Assembly: GCF_003633755.1 (NCBI RefSeq)
Contig: NZ_RBIL01000002.1
Coordinates: 1,550,001 to 1,614,000 of the forward strand
DNA length: 64,000 nt
DNA from: Solirubrobacter pauli
Lineage (GTDB): Bacteria; Actinomycetota; Thermoleophilia; Solirubrobacterales; Solirubrobacteraceae
Reading direction: 5' to 3'
This document shows, in pieces, positions 20,284-64,000 of this stretch. The translations under genes were made by a program, and so were the position numbers. Each line of letters opens with the position of its first letter. The stretch's first letter is position 1. Below the pieces are notes generated by a model, which made no database searches, had not been told where the DNA came from, and saw only the letters and a list, made by a program, of their open reading frames with translations.

Positions 20284-22089
20284 ATGCGCGCAACGCGCAT
20301 TGCGGTTCTGGCCGCTGTCGGCGTGGCCGCGGCCGGGGCGACCGGGGTCGCCGTCGGGCAGTCGGGGCCCGACAAGAGCGCTTCGCTCAAGGCTTCGGTG
20401 GACATCTCGAAGCCCAAGAACATCATCCTGTTCATCGGCGACGGCATGGGTGACTCCGAGGTCACCTCGGGCCGCTACTACGCCAAGGGTGCTGCCGGGC
20501 GCCTGAACATGGACTCGCTGCCGTTCCGCGGCGACGTGACGACCTACAACGTCGGGCCGGCGGCCGCCGCGCCGTACCCGCCCAACTACGTGCCGGACTC
20601 GGCGCCGACCGCCGCGGCGTGGTCGAGCGGCATCAAGACGCTCGACGGTCGCCTCGGCCAGGGCCCGAGCTCGGGCGTCACCGTCCCGGGCACGAACTAC
20701 GAGACCTACATGGAGATCGCGAAGAAGCGCGGTCTCTCCACGGGCAACGTCTCCACCGCGGAGATCACCGACGCGACGCCGGCGGGCCCGTCGGCGCACA
20801 TCTCCCAGCGTGGGTGCCAGGGCCCGAACGACACGCGTTCGTCGTGCCCGACGGAGACCAAGGCGGCCGGCGGCCTCGGCTCGATCGCCGAGCAGCAGGC
20901 CGACAACCAGTTCGACGTCGTGCTCGGCGGCGGCCGCGCCCGCTACGCGCAGCCGCTCGAGCCGGGTGGCACGAAGAACGTCATCGACTACGCCAAGGAG
21001 AAGGGCTACAAGTACGTCGCCACCGAGGCGGAGATGAACGCGGTCGGCACGCTCGCCCCGGGTGAGCGCCTTCTCGGCCTGTTCCACGACTCCAACATGA
21101 CGACGGAGTTCCAGCCCCTGATCGCGTCCGACACCGGCGCCGGCTCGGCCACCACCAAGTGCCAGCCGTCCAACCGCGGCACCGAGCCCACCCTGGCCGA
21201 GATGACCGACAAGGCCATCAAGCTCCTCGAGGGCAACCAGAAGGGCTTCGTGCTCCAGGTCGAGGGCGCCTCGATCGACAAGCGTGACCACGCCTCCGAC
21301 GCCTGCGGCCAGATCGGCGAGCTGATCGGCATGGACGACGCCCTCGGCGTCGCCCAGGAGTTCCAGAAGTCCCACCCGGACACGCTGATCATCGTCAGCG
21401 CCGACCACTCCCACACGAGCCAGATCATCGGCCCGACCACGGTCCCGCGCGGCCAGTACACGACCCTGCAGACCGCTGACGGCGCCCCGATCCGCATCTC
21501 CTACGGCACCGCCGCGATCACCGGCTCCCAGTCCCACACCGGTGCCACCGTCCCGGTCTTCGCCTCCGGCCCCCGCGCCGCCGACGTGACCGGCACGATC
21601 GACCAGACCGCGCTGTTCCCGATCCTCACCAACACCCAGACGGGCACCGGCCCGGCGACCTCCACCCCGGTCGGCGGCGACGTCGGCGGCTCCGTCCCGG
21701 CGACCCTGGCGCTGACCGTCTCCGGCGCCGCCTCGTTCCCGGCCTTCGTCCCGGGCGTCGCGAAGGACTACGTCGCCGGTCCGCTCACCGCCAACGTCAC
21801 CTCGACCGCCGGCCTGGCCACCCTCACCGTGGCCGACGCCGGCACCACCAACCCGGGCACGCTCACCAACGGCACCTTCGCCCTGGCGCAGCCGCTCCAG
21901 GCCCGGGCCAAGGACGGCGCCTTCGCCGCCCTCGGCGCCACCCCGACGACCCTCGTCACCTACACCGGCCCGGTCGCCAACGACGCCGCGCCGATCGAGT
22001 TCAAGCAGTCCATCGCGAGCAACGAGCCGCTGCGGACCGGCACTTACGCCAAGACGCTCACGCTCACGCTGTCCACGACGACGCCGTAG
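20284..22089 (+). CDS. phoA: Secreted alkaline phosphatase with extra C-terminal domain
   Basis: A 601-residue PhoA-type phosphomonoesterase with an N-terminal signal peptide (cleavage near AVG-QS). Metal and active-site elements are present: FIGDGMGDSE, nucleophile Ser in VPDSAPTA, EGASIDKRDHA, SADHSH and SQSHTG. The catalytic domain ends near residue 455. A Gly/Pro linker then leads to a ~130-residue Thr/Val/Ala-rich beta domain ending LSTTTP, which is not part of canonical PhoA and may attach the enzyme to the cell surface. A strong AGGAGG-type site precedes the ATG. Confidence 0.92.
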   Translation: MRATRIAVLAAVGVAAAGATGVAVGQSGPDKSASLKASVDISKPKNIILFIGDGMGDSEVTSGRYYAKGAAGRLNMDSLPFRGDVTTYNVGPAAAAPYPPNYVPDSAPTAAAWSSGIKTLDGRLGQGPSSGVTVPGTNYETYMEIAKKRGLSTGNVSTAEITDATPAGPSAHISQRGCQGPNDTRSSCPTETKAAGGLGSIAEQQADNQFDVVLGGGRARYAQPLEPGGTKNVIDYAKEKGYKYVATEAEMNAVGTLAPGERLLGLFHDSNMTTEFQPLIASDTGAGSATTKCQPSNRGTEPTLAEMTDKAIKLLEGNQKGFVLQVEGASIDKRDHASDACGQIGELIGMDDALGVAQEFQKSHPDTLIIVSADHSHTSQIIGPTTVPRGQYTTLQTADGAPIRISYGTAAITGSQSHTGATVPVFASGPRAADVTGTIDQTALFPILTNTQTGTGPATSTPVGGDVGGSVPATLALTVSGAASFPAFVPGVAKDYVAGPLTANVTSTAGLATLTVADAGTTNPGTLTNGTFALAQPLQARAKDGAFAALGATPTTLVTYTGPVANDAAPIEFKQSIASNEPLRTGTYAKTLTLTLSTTTP

Positions 22090-22138
22090 CTCGGGCGTCG
22101 CTTCGTCGCCGCGTCGCCTCGATTCGGGGCGGCGCGGC

Positions 22139-22214
22139 GGCGCCGCGCTCCTCGTCGGCGCCGCGCTCCTCGCGTCGGTGCCGCAGCCTCGCGTCGGCGC
22201 CGTGGCGCTCAGCC
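22139..22214 (+). repeat. Imperfect ~19-bp tandem repeat
   Basis: Four adjacent units of 18-20 bp start with GGCGCCG or GGTGCCG. Units 1 and 2 share GGCGCCGCGCTCCTCG. Unit 3 is GGTGCCGCAGCCTCGCGTC, and unit 4 diverges after GGCGCCG. It lies just after phoA in the 764-bp stretch with no gene (22090-22853). Confidence 0.55.
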
Positions 22215-22244
22215 CAGGTGGCGCGCCGCGGGTCCTGCCCGCGT

Positions 22245-22616
22245 CGGGAAGCACGCCGCCTAGCGCCGCGGCCGGTGCGCTCTTGTGCGGGTGAGCGGCT
22301 CCGCCGGATTGCGGCCGGGCGCGGGCCGCGCGCGTCCCGGGCTCGAGTTCGCCGCGCGAACGTCAAGTTTTGTACCTATGCAGTCGGTTTCGCGACGTTC
22401 GCGTGCCGGACGCCGCGCGAGTGTTCACTTTTCCACCTGTGCGGTGCGAAAGTGCACGCTCGGTGCGGCTGAGCCCGCGGGCGCGGGTTGGCCCCGCGCG
22501 GGGGCTCGCCGGCCCCAGCCGGCCTGACCAGCCCAGAGCACGCCGGCCGCGGCGGGTCAAGCGGCTCGCCGCGAAGCGCGAGTTGCTTGACGCGACGCCC
22601 GACGGTGTGCTCCCCG
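22245..22616 (+). repeat. Dispersed intergenic repeat, copy 1 (MITE-like)
   Basis: Occupies half of the geneless stretch after phoA. It is bounded by inverted termini CGGGAAGCACGCCGCC (22245-22260) and GGTGTGCTCCCCG (22604-22616). Three internal blocks match copy 2 near 62.7 kb in reverse orientation: 22277-22300 (24/24 identical), 22415-22437 (23/23) and 22463-22535 (67/73). The core 22426-22454 is a hairpin (CACTTTTCCACC, loop TGTGC, GGTGCGAAAGTG). A third terminus-like segment at 22536-22547 and a GTCAAGC/GCTTGAC hairpin (22556-22591) suggest a composite. No coding potential seen. 22617-22820 holds only GC-rich sequence. Confidence 0.75.
22352..22420 (+). repeat. Nested insertion with 9-bp direct repeats inside repeat copy 1
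   Basis: The 9-mer GCCGCGCGA occurs at 22352-22360 and 22412-22420 and brackets about 51 bp that has no counterpart in copy 2. The inserted segment carries a perfect 10-bp inverted repeat, CGCGAACGTC (22355-22364) and GACGTTCGCG (22394-22403), with an unusually AT-rich 29-nt spacer. This is the appearance of a very small element that duplicated its target, but no mobility gene is present. Confidence 0.5.
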
Positions 22617-22820
22617 AGCGCGGCACGACGAACCAGCCCGTCGCGCGTTGACCGCCACGGCAGCGACGGCTGTGCGCCGGCGAGCCGGTGCACGCGCTCG
22701 GAAGTAGTGGCGCCGCCGACACCGCGCCGCGCCGCGCCGCGCCGGTAGCGAGCGGCAACGCGCCAGCTCGACGAAACCGGCTAAAGGTCCGCGGACGACC
22801 TGCCGATAACAAGGATTAGA

Positions 22821-22840
22821 CCGCCCGCCGAGGCGGTTTT
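22821..22840 (+). terminator. Intrinsic terminator
   Basis: CCGCC-CGCCGA-GGCGG followed by TTTT, oriented for plus-strand transcription; it lies 14 bp beyond the end of the convergent radical SAM gene. It would stop plus-strand transcripts leaving phoA and the repeat region. Confidence 0.6.
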
Positions 22841-22853
22841 CGCGTTTCTGGGG

Positions 22854-25241
22854 CTAGAACAAAGTCTCCTGCTTCAGCGGGCGTGGCGGGAGCGTCGGAA
22901 GCAGCGGCGGCGGTTGGCGGAGGCCTCCGCGGTGGCGGCGGAACGGGTCCATGCCCTCGCGCGGCTTGAGCCACGGTGCGCCGGCGGCCAGCTCGATCTT
23001 GTGGCGCTCGGGCGGTGAGAGGCGCGAGCCCTTCGCGTAGAGGCGCTCGTAGCGAGGGACGAGGTCTGGGCGGTAGTCGCGGAGCCAGTCCATGAAGATG
23101 CGGCGGACCGCGGTGGACAGGAACAGCGTCTGGCCGCCGATGTAGGTGGCGCCCGCCTCGGTGGCCAGCTCGACGATCTTCTCGACCTGATCGGGCGCGT
23201 CGTTGATGCCCGGGATGAGCGGGGCCATGAGGACGCCGGTCGGGATGCCGTTGCGGTTGAGCTCCGCGACCGCCTCCAGGCGAGCGCGGGGGTGCGGCGT
23301 GTGCGGCTCGGTGGCACGCCACGCCTTCTCGTCCAGGGTCGGGACGGACAGGCAGGCGCTGATGTCGGAGACCGCGGCGATCTCCTGCATCAGGTCCAGG
23401 TCGCGCAGCAGCAGCGGCGACTTCGTCAGGATCGAGCACGGGTTCTCCGCGTCGCGCAGCGCCTCCCAGATGCCGCGCATGAGCTTGTAACGGCCCTCGA
23501 CCCACTGGTAGGGGTCGGTGTTCGTGCCGAGCGCGACCGTCTCCCCGGTCCAAGACGGCCGGCGCAGCTCGGCGCGGAGCACCTCGGGCACGTTGACCTT
23601 GACGACGATCTCGCGCTCGAAGTCCCGCCCCGCGTCCAGCTCGAGGTACTCGTGGGTCGGCCGGGCGAAGCAGTTGTGGCTGACCACGCCGTTGGCGATG
23701 AAGTCCCCCGTGCCGGTCGTGATGTCGAACATCGGCATGTCCACGCCGAGCGGCTCGATCGACGTGACCCGCAGCGACCCCGGGAACTTCACGGCGCGGC
23801 CGTCGATCGTGCACTTGCGCCGGATCGCCGGCGCGACCGTGTGGAAGAACCGCAGGTGCTCGGCCGCCCCGCCCAGCAGGCGAAGCGTGCTCGCGTCCTC
23901 CGAGACGGAGTGGAAGCCGAGCACGCGCAGGCTGTCAGCCGCCCTGCGGAGCACCGCCGGGTCCGAGTTCGCGAGCCGCAGGGCTTCGCCGCTCGAGCCG
24001 TCGGCGTCGAACACGCCCGCCAGGAAGCCCTTGCACCACTCCTGGCTCGGGTCCCACGGCCACGCCAGCACGTGCCGCATCGACTCGCCCGACGGTCGGT
24101 CGACCCGCATCTCGCGGTAGCCGGCGACCGCGGCCGCGCTCATGGTGAGCCCGAGCTCGGCGAGGTAGAGCTCCACGCGCTCGAGGGCCTCGCGACCCGC
24201 CGGCGTGAGCCGGAACAGATGGTCGTCGCCGTGGACGGCGCCGCACAGGTAGCCGCGCCGATAGTCCGCGTCCTCGACCGGCGCCGCGGCGAACTTGCCG
24301 ACGCCGCCGATCCGGTCACCCACCTGCAGGACGGGACGCTGGGTCCGCGCGACCACGCCGCCCAGGATGCGACGGCGGGAGACCGCGGACGCGGCCTCGG
24401 CGAGTGCGACGCCGCTGTCCGAGCCCGACGGACGGGGACCGCGAGCCTCGGCCGCGCCGTACCCGCGCCTCGGGACCGCGCCGGACGCATCGGCCACCCA
24501 GCGTCCCGCGACCGCGCCGGACCCACCGGCCGCCCCGCGCCCCGGGGCCGAGCCGGACGCCCCCGCCGCAACCGCGGCCAACGCACCGTCCGCGTGCGGC
24601 ACGGTGCCCGTGCCGGGCACGGAGAAGGCGCCTGAGGCGAACCGAGGTCCGCTGGCCGAAGCCGAAGGCGCCACGCGGCCGCCGACCGTCACGGTGCGGT
24701 CAGCGGCCGCGAGGCCCGGGCCCGCGACGGGGCCACTGACCGTGGCGGGCCCGGCCTCGGTGCCGGCGGTGACGTAGCGCCAGCCGCGGCGGGTGAGGAA
24801 GCGGTGGTCTCCGCTCGCCACGAGCTCCGTGCCGTCCTCGAGGGAGACGCGGTAGGCGGGCTTGAGCGTGGACCAATGCGCAAGGACCTCCGTGCGCACG
24901 AAGCGGCGGGTGCGGCCGACGCGGCGGGTGCCGTAGATGCGGTCTCCCGGACGGAGGTCGGCCAGAGCGCGTGTGCGGCCGTCCGCCAGCAGGATCTCGG
25001 TATCTCCCGCGAGGCAGTAGACGCACGCGTGCGAGCAGCCGCGGTACGGGTTGACGGTCCAGTTGAAGGGCAGCCGTGAGGCCGCCGGGACGCGGTTGAG
25101 CGCCGACTTGGTGCGCACCTCGTGGAAGCGCATGTCCAGCGCCTCCGGCGCGTCGAACCGGCGGACCACCGTGTCCCCCAGGCCGGGGAGCTGCCCGGCG
25201 TCGTCTCGCTCGATGACCTGTGATGACCAGCGCACGAACAC
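22854..25241 (-). CDS. Rv2578c-type radical SAM protein interrupted by an intein
   Basis: A 795-residue precursor. After splicing, a ~347-residue radical SAM protein of the SplB-like/Rv2578c family remains. The cluster motif Cys69-x3-Cys73-x2-Cys is split so that the third cysteine (Cys524 of the precursor) is the residue after the intein. The protein is therefore inactive until splicing restores CSHACVYCFARPTHEYL. The N-terminal extein (1-75) and the C-terminal extein (524-795) both match the family. Function of the family is unknown; a nucleic-acid repair role is sometimes suggested by SplB similarity. Confidence 0.92.
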   Translation of the reverse strand: MFVRWSSQVIERDDAGQLPGLGDTVVRRFDAPEALDMRFHEVRTKSALNRVPAASRLPFNWTVNPYRGCSHACVYCLAGDTEILLADGRTRALADLRPGDRIYGTRRVGRTRRFVRTEVLAHWSTLKPAYRVSLEDGTELVASGDHRFLTRRGWRYVTAGTEAGPATVSGPVAGPGLAAADRTVTVGGRVAPSASASGPRFASGAFSVPGTGTVPHADGALAAVAAGASGSAPGRGAAGGSGAVAGRWVADASGAVPRRGYGAAEARGPRPSGSDSGVALAEAASAVSRRRILGGVVARTQRPVLQVGDRIGGVGKFAAAPVEDADYRRGYLCGAVHGDDHLFRLTPAGREALERVELYLAELGLTMSAAAVAGYREMRVDRPSGESMRHVLAWPWDPSQEWCKGFLAGVFDADGSSGEALRLANSDPAVLRRAADSLRVLGFHSVSEDASTLRLLGGAAEHLRFFHTVAPAIRRKCTIDGRAVKFPGSLRVTSIEPLGVDMPMFDITTGTGDFIANGVVSHNCFARPTHEYLELDAGRDFEREIVVKVNVPEVLRAELRRPSWTGETVALGTNTDPYQWVEGRYKLMRGIWEALRDAENPCSILTKSPLLLRDLDLMQEIAAVSDISACLSVPTLDEKAWRATEPHTPHPRARLEAVAELNRNGIPTGVLMAPLIPGINDAPDQVEKIVELATEAGATYIGGQTLFLSTAVRRIFMDWLRDYRPDLVPRYERLYAKGSRLSPPERHKIELAAGAPWLKPREGMDPFRRHRGGLRQPPPLLPTLPPRPLKQETLF
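23673..25016 (-). other. Intein with LAGLIDADG homing endonuclease
   Basis: Precursor residues 76-523 (448 aa). Block A begins Cys-Leu-Ala-Gly-Asp; block B is ASGDHRFLT; the terminal block is FIANGVVSHN with the required His-Asn before a Cys+1. Two LAGLIDADG helices are visible, GYLCGAVHGDD (about 330-340) and GFLAGVFDADG (about 405-415), both with acidic residues, so endonuclease activity is plausible. Between block B and the first helix is a ~140-residue Ala/Gly/Pro/Arg-rich low-complexity stretch (about 160-300) not typical of inteins. Confidence 0.93.
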
Positions 25242-61446: not shown

Positions 61447-62553
61447 TCAGCCCGCGAGTGGATCCCCCGAGCTGAGCTTCGGCGGCGCGTACGACGGCTG
61501 GTTGGGATCCTCCGTCGACGACGGCGCACCGGGCACGGCGGGTGCCTTGCCCTCCCCCGCGACCGGCGGCTGAGGTGTTCCCGAAGGGACACCGGGCGCC
61601 TGCGGCGGCGCGGTCGAGCCCTCGACCGGCGCGGGCGGACCGCTCGGCGGCTCCGTCGGCGGAACCCCCGGCGTCGCAGGCGGAGCCCAGTCCGCGGGCG
61701 CGCTCGGCGGAGCCGGCGGAGGGGGAGTCAACGGCTCGCCGAACTCCGGCCCGGGAGGCGGCGCGGCAGGCGCGCTCGGGGCCGCACCGGCCAGCGGGTC
61801 ACCGTGCGGCGGCGACGCCGGCGGGCCGCTCGGCGGGTCCCACGACGGTGCGGACGAGCCGGTGGCACCGGCCAGCGGGTCACCGTGCGGCGGTGACGCG
61901 GGCGGGCTGCCCGGGGCGGGCGCGTGCCCCGGGAGCGGGCCACCCTGAGCAGGCGGCTCCCACGCGGCCGAGCCGGGCGGTGCCGGCGCGGGCGCGGCCG
62001 GGCCGCTGGGCGGGGCCCAGTTGGACGGAGGCGGCGCCGACGGGCCGGTGGGCGGCGGCGCGGACGCCGCGCCCGCGAGCGGGTCGCCGTGCGCGACCGG
62101 CGGCGGCGCGGGCGTCGCCAGCGGGTCGCCCGAGGCCGGGGACGGCGTCGGCGGGCCGGAGTAGCCCGTCGGGATGCCTGGGGAGTGCGGCGGCGCGGGC
62201 GGCGGCGGCGGGGTGCTGTGCCCCGGCGGCGGCCACGCGGGGCTCTGGGACTGGCCGGGCCAGGCCGGGCCGCCCGCGAGCGGGTCGCCGTGCGGTGCGG
62301 GCGCCGCGGGGTCCGGGACCGGGCCGGGCGTGGCCGGCGGACCCGGGTGCGGACCCGCGAGCGGATCACCGTGCGGCGGCGACGCCGACTGCTGCGGCGG
62401 GATCGGACGACCGTGCTTGTCGTACTCGACGTACCCGCCCGGCTGCTGCGGACCAGGCCGGGAAGCGCCCTGCTGGTTGATCTGGGACTGCACCTCGTCG
62501 AGCTTGGTCTGCGCCTGCTCGGCGAGCTTCTTGGCCTTGTCAAGGAAGCCCAT
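61447..62553 (-). CDS. Pro/Ala-rich protein with seven GDPLAG motifs
   Basis: A 368-residue protein of unknown function. The first ~28 residues form an amphipathic, coiled-coil-like helix (FLDKAKKLAEQAQTKLDEVQ). The rest is Pro/Ala/Gly/Ser-rich and probably disordered, containing the hexapeptide GDPLAG six times plus one GDPLAT; five copies are preceded by His. The last copy is exactly the C-terminus. No signal peptide or membrane segment is visible. The short recurrent motif in a disordered chain suggests a multivalent binding scaffold. Located 26 bp downstream of the dapA start, transcribed toward dapA. Confidence 0.75.
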   Translation of the reverse strand: MGFLDKAKKLAEQAQTKLDEVQSQINQQGASRPGPQQPGGYVEYDKHGRPIPPQQSASPPHGDPLAGPHPGPPATPGPVPDPAAPAPHGDPLAGGPAWPGQSQSPAWPPPGHSTPPPPPAPPHSPGIPTGYSGPPTPSPASGDPLATPAPPPVAHGDPLAGAASAPPPTGPSAPPPSNWAPPSGPAAPAPAPPGSAAWEPPAQGGPLPGHAPAPGSPPASPPHGDPLAGATGSSAPSWDPPSGPPASPPHGDPLAGAAPSAPAAPPPGPEFGEPLTPPPPAPPSAPADWAPPATPGVPPTEPPSGPPAPVEGSTAPPQAPGVPSGTPQPPVAGEGKAPAVPGAPSSTEDPNQPSYAPPKLSSGDPLAG

Positions 62554-62663
62554 GGCACGACGGTACCCGGTTCGGGCGTGTGCTCGCGTGGTGCTAACCG
62601 GCGTCTCTTGTGGCCGAGCCGCGTGGAGCTCAGCTCGGGTGGCGGGCGTCGGGCTTCATCGCG

Positions 62664-62882
62664 CCGGGGAGCACACCGGCCTGGGCTGGTCAAGCCGGCC
62701 GGGACCGGCGAGCCCCCGCGCGGGGTCAACCCGCGCTCACGGGCTCAGCCGCACTGAACGATCACTTTCCCACCTGTGCGGTGGAAAAGTGAACACTCGC
62801 GCGACGCGCGGCCCGCGCGCGGGCGCACCCGGCGCAAGCCGCTCACCCGCACAAGAGCGCGCCGCCCGACGGGGTGCTCCCG
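62664..62882 (-). repeat. Dispersed intergenic repeat, copy 2 (MITE-like)
   Basis: Reverse-oriented partner of the repeat near 22.4 kb. Termini CGGGGAGCACACCGGC (62665-62680) and GGGGTGCTCCCG (62871-62882) are inverted. Blocks 62682-62754, 62780-62802 and 62837-62860 correspond to copy 1 blocks. The core hairpin 62763-62791 is near perfect (CACTTTCCCACC, loop TGTGC, GGTGGAAAAGTG); its loop is inverted relative to the flanks when compared with copy 1. It occupies most of the 399-bp stretch without a gene (62554-62952); the remaining ~180 bp show no gene. Confidence 0.75.
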
Positions 62883-62952
62883 AACCACGCCAGGCACCGG
62901 CGCGCGCCACCCGCACTGAACTCCACGGGTGACGCGCTCCGGGTACGTGGTG

Positions 62953-64000
62953 CTAGGCCGCCGTGAGGCGGAAGTGCCCGACCAGCGCCTCGAGGCGCTC
63001 GGCGGTGATGGCCAGCTCGGCCGCGCTGGAGGCGATCTCCTGCGTCGACGCGCTGGTCTCCTGGGTGGAGGCGGAGACCTGCTCGGCGGAGGCGGAGGAC
63101 TCCTCGGCGACGGAGGCGATCTCGGCGATCTCGTCCTGGGTGCGCTCCGAGTCGGCGGAGATCTGCTCGCTGGCGGCGGCGATCTCGGCGACGCGCTCGG
63201 CCATCGAGGCGACGGCCACGTCGATGCGCTGGAAGGCGTCGCGGGTCTGCTGGACGGTGACGACGCCGTCCTCGGTGCGGCGGGCGCCTTCCTCGACGAC
63301 GATGACGACGGAGTTGGTCTCGGTCTGCATCTCGCCGATCAGGCTGGAGATCTGCGAGGCGGCCGCCTGGGACTCCTCGGCCAGCTTGCGGACCTCTTCG
63401 GCGACGACGGCGAAGCCCTTGCCCTGCTCGCCCGCGCGGGCAGCCTCGATGGCCGCGTTGAGCGCCAGGAGGTTGGTCTGCTCGGCGATGCCGGTGATCG
63501 TGTCGACGATGCCGCCGATGCGCTCGGAGCGCTGGGCGAGGCCCTCGATCGCGGTCGTGATCTCGCGCGAGGCGTCGGCGACGTGCTGGATGGCGTCCGT
63601 GGCCTGCTCGGCCGCGGCGACGCCGTGACGGGCGACCTCGCCCGCGTCACCGGCGACGGTGGCGGCCTCGGACGCGGCCGTCGAGGACGCGCGCGCGGCG
63701 CGGGTGGTCTCCAGCGCGGTGTCGCGCGCGGTCTCGACCATGCGGACCTGGCGCTCGGCGCCCTGGGCCACGTCGCCCACGGCGGACGCGATCTCGGTGA
63801 CGGCGCGGCCGGCCTCCTCGGAGGTGGACGCCATCTGCTGCGACGCGGAGGCAACGCTGCCGGCGCTCGCGCTGACGTCGCCGACCACGCGCTCGAGGTC
63901 CACGACCAGCCGCTGCATGGCGACGCCGAGCAGGTCGCGCTCGGAGCGCGGCTTCGGCTCCACCGTCAGGTCGCCCGCGGCGACGCGCTCGGCGACCTCG
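62953..64000 (-). CDS. Methyl-accepting chemotaxis protein, C-terminal part
   Basis: The gene runs off the window; 349 residues are visible. They comprise the end of a HAMP domain ([14 protein letters not shown]) and the full cytoplasmic signalling domain, a long heptad coiled coil. The highly conserved hairpin tip [21 protein letters not shown] (here split around 63.45 kb) and the [17 protein letters not shown] stretch are present. It would signal through the CheW/CheA encoded 15-20 kb away. Sensor and membrane parts lie outside the window. Confidence 0.94.

Follow-up and report, generated by a model that had tools for sequence, protein, structure and literature searches.

Interspersed palindromes are common in bacteria; to our knowledge, only REPs, together with their REP-associated tyrosine transposases (RAYTs), have a plausible spreading enzyme. 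REP/BIME elements with RAYTs are also the concept nearest to the repeats described here (PMC2817692). The second relevant system is that of AbiEi, which represses its own promoter by binding to inverted repeats there; two such repeats, of 23 bp, lie in this promoter, which drives a two-gene toxin–antitoxin operon (PMC3985639).

Here, we analyze two related intergenic repeats from a 64,000-nt stretch of a Solirubrobacter genome (the window), originally predicted from the sequence to be MITE-like or to be structured repeats with a role at mRNA ends. We are confident that they belong to a real, mobile family of nested palindromes located at gene ends.

Structure of the two copies in the window

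When the two copies are compared by BLASTN, the predicted inverted repeat pair (22245–22616 vs. 62.66–62.88 kb) is borne out: one inverted match covers 137 bp at 85% (E 7e-43), a second one covers 134 bp at 74% (E 2e-19), and there are shorter ones besides. The predicted CGGGgAGCACaCCG ends are present in the sequence, and so is the CACTTTT..GAAAGTG core, but the latter is one of two adjacent hairpins (22353–22405 and 22417–22462), which in copy 1 sit within further side hairpins. The location of the copies was given correctly and their limits were not: the real spans are approximately 22202–22660 and 62622–62927, since the AGCACACCG arm lies within an outer one, GTGGCGCTCAGC../..TGAGCGCCAC. 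The features of both copies are as follows.

22202–22660, plus strand: copy 1, entire nested palindrome, in a convergent gap
22202–22225, plus strand: copy 1 outer arm A, 5' side, GTGGCGCTCAGCCCAGGTGGCGCG; pairs with 22640–22660 and forms the edge of most copies
22640–22660, plus strand: copy 1 outer arm A', 3' side, GTCGCGCGTTGACCGCCACGG
22245–22258, plus strand: copy 1 arm B, 5' side, CGGGAAGCACGCCG; the terminus given in the original prediction
22600–22616, plus strand: copy 1 arm B', 3' side, CGACGGTGTGCTCCCCG
22556–22591, plus strand: copy 1 side hairpin C, GTCAAG..CTTGAC; 36–63 nt in other copies
22275–22299, plus strand: copy 1 arm E, GTGCGCTCTTGTGCGGGTGAGCGGC; fold partner 22500–22541
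22500–22541, plus strand: copy 1 arm F, GGGGGCTCGCCGGCCCCAGCCGGCCTGACCAGCCCAGAGCAC
22353–22405, plus strand: copy 1 inner hairpin H2, 53 nt, ends CACGCGA/TCGCGTG; fixed-length class
22417–22462, plus strand: copy 1 inner hairpin H3, GCGAGTGTTCACTTTTCCACC TGTGC GGTGCGAAAGTGCACGCTCG
62622–62927, minus strand: copy 2, entire nested palindrome in reverse orientation, without H2 and hairpin C
62622–62644, plus strand: copy 2 outer arm A, CGTGGAGCTCAGCTCGGGTGGCG
62901–62927, plus strand: copy 2 outer arm A', CGCGCGCCACCCGCACTGAACTCCACG
62663–62679, plus strand: copy 2 arm B, GCCGGGGAGCACACCGG
62865–62882, plus strand: copy 2 arm B', CCCGACGGGGTGCTCCCG
62680–62725, plus strand: copy 2 arm F
62838–62862, plus strand: copy 2 arm E
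62752–62799, plus strand: copy 2 core hairpin H3, GATCACTTTCCCACCTGTGCGGTGGAAAAGTGAAC

Each copy is a palindrome made of palindromes, ~110–1,100 bp long, with swappable hairpin modules arranged around common outer arms. Going inwards, the outer arm pair GTGGCGCTCAGC../..TGAGCGCCAC is followed by the pair GGGGAGCACACCGTCGGGCG../..CGCCCGACGGTGTGCTCCCC, by side hairpins C, by arms E and F, and by the centre. The centre of family copies consists of one or two hairpins, and side hairpin C (GTCAAG..CTTGAC) is found on one or both sides. Copies are distinguished by whole modules: the smallest one, at locus L125, has little beyond the outer arm, while locus L075 has two central hairpins, both of the 53-nt class considered below. 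The interiors of hairpin C are swapped yet complementary (AAACCC/GGGTTT, AAACTC/GAGTTT, CAATTC/GAATTG). The two window copies fold more stably than shuffled sequences (z -5.2 and -4.5), and the opposite strand also folds strongly.

Both copies were expected to be gene-free, and mapping of the flanking genes with a gene finder agrees with this. The gap that contains copy 1 (22090–22853) is convergent, between a plus-strand gene ending at 22089 and a minus-strand gene at 22854–25241; copy 2 is flanked by the 3' end of a minus-strand gene at 62953 on one side and by the 5' end of a minus-strand ORF (61447–62553) on the other. A 10-bp direct repeat CGTGGTGCTA brackets copy 2 (62587–62596 and 62946–62955); the edges of the copy are fuzzy, and the repeat may be a target duplication or chance. 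It is a hint only, and no clean target-site duplication was defined for the family.

Size, position, and turnover of the family

A search of the genome of origin (G000; 7.1 Mb, four contigs) with 22200–22660 as the BLASTN query yields 48 matches at ~20 loci, the best one being 92% over 397 bp (E 6e-158), and a second query built of diverged copies adds ~7 loci. Hence, the window pair is not due to chance, and a family is implied; the claim that such a pair means many genomic copies holds, with ~30 related loci, and the outcome of no further copies is excluded. Among 61 genomes (the own genome and 60 relatives), strong matches are seen only within the genus Solirubrobacter, and those outside it are weak and short. 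The exact end motif GGRAGCACACCGTCGGGCG has many matches in Solirubrobacter phytolaccae and S. taibaiensis. A broad distribution of the exact family was rejected, as the single end-motif matches in a few unrelated records look like chance, and so was a viral origin, as the exact motif was not found in viral contigs. A second set of nested elements (L083, L087, L081, L126, and L127) has GGGGGTG..CACCCCC hairpins; arms B and C are common to this set and the window family, and the inner hairpins differ.

The family copies are found between convergent genes in 14 of 23 cases, between tandem genes in nine, and never between divergent genes. Gene orientation here comes from a simple, home-made, codon-based gene finder, by which some genes are missed, and the background from the window together with 400 kb sampled at even spacing, where convergent and divergent gaps comprise 17.5 and 30.5% of intergenic bases, respectively. 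Relative to this background, the excess of convergent positions has p 4e-6, and the deficit of divergent ones p 2e-4. The convergent background is overestimated, because most large convergent gaps in the 400-kb sample looked like missed genes; these gaps were also considered as additional families and for the most part rejected. In many copies, a stop codon lies within ~30 bases of the start. What speaks for the proposed role in mRNA ends is position, i.e., the 14 convergent and zero divergent cases of 23 and the short terminator-like hairpins of relatives at the same spots; no T-tract was seen in the element sequences read.

Orthologous sites are filled differently in the relatives. At the uvrA site, the own genome has an 889-bp gap containing an element, G003 has a family member whose inner hairpins differ, and in G004 the place is taken by a nested palindrome of 308 bp that is unrelated; G001 has one perfect hairpin there, and G005 has 28 bp. 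The site of copy 2 is occupied by short unrelated hairpins in G003, G001, G004, and G005; the site of copy 1 in G004 is a 139-bp gap with one short hairpin; and at two more sites the neighbour genes abut or overlap in relatives. Therefore, the elements come and go, arising where relatives have short terminator-like hairpins. The family is mobile, and it is turned over one hairpin at a time. The description as a non-autonomous, dispersed, structured intergenic repeat fits these observations well (~30 copies, and orthologous sites that are variously occupied, empty, or filled with something else). At the site in G003 orthologous to copy 1 (L152, ~1340–1500), three tandem hairpins with ends GATCCGTCAGTTG..AAGTGACGGAT are located within the family element.

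Fixed-length hairpins and gene starts

The pattern CACGCGAR..YTCGCGTG occurs at 29 places in G004, 17 in G003, seven in G000, and four each in G001 and G006, compared to two to five places for the reversed-pattern control (four in G004, three in G003), and the true matches have, nearly without exception, a length of exactly 53 nt. Of the inner-stem cells of 34 unique 53-nt sequences, 0.70 are Watson–Crick, vs. 0.49 (maximum 0.56) when the 3' halves are dealt among the sequences, and three or four types are seen for several of the stem pairs. Hairpin H2 of the window is a member of this class, its left end differing by one base. The class length is 53 nt in Solirubrobacter and 45 nt in three other genera.

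In some cases, a stand-alone member of the class extends across a gene's start codon: ATGC-CACGCGAACGTTCAGTTCGTCAACCAGGAGTTGACCAAGCCATCGCTCGCGTG is translated as MPRERSVRQPGVDQAIARVA, and in the protein whose start codon lies in the palindrome, residue 14 is the first one of the AbiEi_4 domain. The partner proteins combine AbiEi_4 (winged helix) with DUF559/MTES_1575, predicted restriction-endonuclease-like (Vsr-like nuclease) domains; they are named by weak domain matches only, and the nuclease activity is a prediction. AbiEi_4 matches at E 3e-9 and 8e-10, and PADLOC AbiEi models also match, indicating an AbiEi-type winged helix; no relative of known structure was found by sequence for the AbiEi–DUF559 protein.

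Each Solirubrobacter genome has 3–14 DUF559 genes. Strong start hairpins are observed in 15 of 26 such genes in Solirubrobacter, vs. 39 of 376 control starts (p 3e-8). These hairpins are mostly 47–57 nt long, with the start codon inside or beside the 5' arm, and ~40% of the genes have no obvious start hairpin. Since the pattern was noticed first and then tested in the same genus, the test was repeated in other genera of the family, where 13 of 24 such genes have strong start hairpins (p 6e-7); control starts in both comparisons are all from G000.

For 11 of the 17 Solirubrobacter start hairpins, there is a dispersed intergenic hairpin that matches at z ≥4, z being derived from stem permutations that preserve pairing and composition. 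Thus matched, loop included, are the start hairpin of the L209 gene of G000 and an intergenic copy at L126 in the same genome; in G003, the C80 gene begins with a near-perfect 53-nt hairpin. For the window, comparison with gene-start hairpins gives z 5.6 for H2, with 0 of 300 permutations as good, a suggestive z 3.8 for H3 of copy 1, and z 3.6 for H3 of copy 2 (one of 300 permutations as good in either case). Modules C and F match no gene-start palindrome in the same comparison, and the outer arms are traced to no gene; therefore, the link to genes covers the inner hairpins only. For these, as far as sequence comparison goes, partnership with AbiEi–DUF559 genes appears well supported.

Two side observations concern the genes themselves. 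In G001 (L205, 1204 onwards), the orthologue of the L186 DUF559 gene looks degraded (frameshifted or deleted), with the start hairpin kept. Many AbiEi–DUF559 genes (L206–L240) are preceded by an upstream motif, approximately GGCACA..N..CGCG(T/C)GTAGATCCGT or TCTTGTTCCGT, that resembles a common promoter.

Independent genera

The pattern CGAGTGGN{23,47}CCACTCG, with only the outer seven bases fixed, was run over the 61 genomes. Some of the genomes show an excess: there are nine copies in G023 (control, one) and, in G028 as well as in G015, four palindromic 45-nt copies per genome, of which one is a DUF559 gene start. The interiors of dispersed copies agree with the own genome's gene at 0.74 (G023), 0.81 (G028), and 0.88 (G015), and with the genes of the other two genera at 0.26–0.38. 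In these three genera, gene and dispersed palindromes are matched by lineage, as REP/RAYT pairs are. Most dispersed 45-nt copies in other genera lie between convergent genes, and in G015 the bases flanking the palindrome are also common to the gene and the dispersed copies. The palindrome is present at both ends of the gene in one clear case (G023); most DUF559 genes are not flanked on both sides, the others with the palindrome having it only at the start. We infer a pairing of the REP/RAYT kind, but with an unrelated protein.

Origin and spread of the family

The explanation that we consider the best, holding it with about as much confidence as doubt, is a composite REP/BIME-like palindromic repeat that spreads at gene 3' ends and is linked to the AbiEi–DUF559 protein. 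By analogy with AbiEi, the start-codon palindrome would be the DNA site recognised by the winged helix of this protein, and its Vsr/PD-(D/E)XK-like domain would nick or process hairpins extruded at palindromes or terminators. New hairpins would be copied into or beside existing ones, resulting in nesting; existing terminators and palindromes would be the preferred entry points, which would explain both the nesting and the position at gene ends. The host would tolerate the result or use it as a two-way transcription terminator. The AbiEi–DUF559 protein may thus control or spread the dispersed hairpins, and their mobilisation by it is plausible. More tentatively, AbiEi–DUF559 proteins might be the autonomous partners of a widespread unnamed class of palindromes, the winged helix binding the palindrome and the nuclease copying it into gene-end hairpins, which would make a non-HUH, REP-like system.

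The same hairpins could instead be two-way terminators or stabilisers of mRNA 3' ends that benefit the host and were spread by gene conversion or duplication, the AbiEi–DUF559 genes having recruited a hairpin as an operator or translational switch. We find this rather unlikely. Copies do lie directly after stop codons and between convergent genes, short terminator-like hairpins occupy the same sites in relatives, and both strands fold strongly; however, a 20-bp hairpin would suffice for termination, yet the elements reach 400–1,100 bp with nested modules, lack a T-tract in the sequences read, and have conserved ends, fixed lengths (53/45 nt), and lineage-matched interiors that exceed the needs of a terminator. 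Still more doubtful is a family of non-autonomous MITEs mobilised by a conventional transposase (DDE or Y1) that the genome lacks or that escaped recognition there, as the lengths and interiors of the elements change by whole hairpins and a search for a gene flanked by two family ends gave none, although the dispersed copies, inverted ends, and empty sites are what would be expected of such a family. A classical MITE with a matching transposase is not supported, in that none with such ends was found, Y1 having been searched, and no clean target duplication was defined. The only Y1 transposase of G000 has different ends, TTAAACGTCCAGGACGTTTAAGTT; hence, being single-copy and with other palindromic ends, this IS200-like gene was rejected as the mobiliser, and no cognate Y1 tyrosine transposase with matching palindromes was found. 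Its ORF (L185, ~1400–2020; G000:C1 near 2721885) has TTAAACGTCCAGGACGTTTAAGTT on both sides, the left copy beginning one base later.

The multi-branched fold and the complementary swapping of hairpin interiors would also be expected of a large structured non-coding or cis-regulatory RNA, with hairpins covarying under RNA selection, but we regard this origin as very improbable. The only match in an Rfam covariance-model search is a nearby c-di-AMP riboswitch (L087, 4197–4338; RF00379, 69 bits), the elements themselves having none. In the gene-start palindromes, read in the coding orientation, G–T pairs (21) are not above A–C pairs (31), whereas selection on RNA would predict an excess; this points weakly to DNA, rather than RNA, as what is selected. 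Moreover, the C hairpins on the left and right of an element are reverse complements of each other, so G–T in one is A–C in the other, which also argues against RNA.

Comparison with known systems

The matching of palindromes to AbiEi–DUF559 genes in four genera provides a second, unrelated candidate for a spreading enzyme, and it would offer a role for a large group of genes, orphan "antitoxin" and DUF559 ones, whose present annotation is unknown or defence. The nested hairpins also illustrate a way in which a terminator could develop into a long composite element. The literature search turned up no report that connects dispersed palindromes with DUF559 or AbiEi proteins; subscription literature was mostly outside the search, and novelty is not proven.

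Like MITEs, the elements are short, non-coding, and dispersed, and have inverted ends; unlike MITEs, they change by whole hairpins, and no transposase with matching ends was found. They share with bidirectional intrinsic terminators the presence of hairpins between convergent genes, but are far longer, are nested, and contain repeated family sequence as well as modules of fixed length. What is shared with the AbiEi system is an AbiEi-type winged helix whose gene has inverted repeats at its 5' end; in contrast to that system, here a single long palindrome covers the start codon, the C-terminal domain is nuclease-like, and there are dispersed copies. As in REP/RAYT systems, the palindromes are extragenic, form mosaic assemblies, and match a cognate gene of the same genome. 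The differences from REP/RAYT are that units of 45–57 nt are nested in long composite palindromes, copies number ~10–30 rather than hundreds, the palindrome covers the start codon and is usually found at one gene end only, and the candidate partner is a winged-helix protein with DUF559, not a Y1/HUH transposase.
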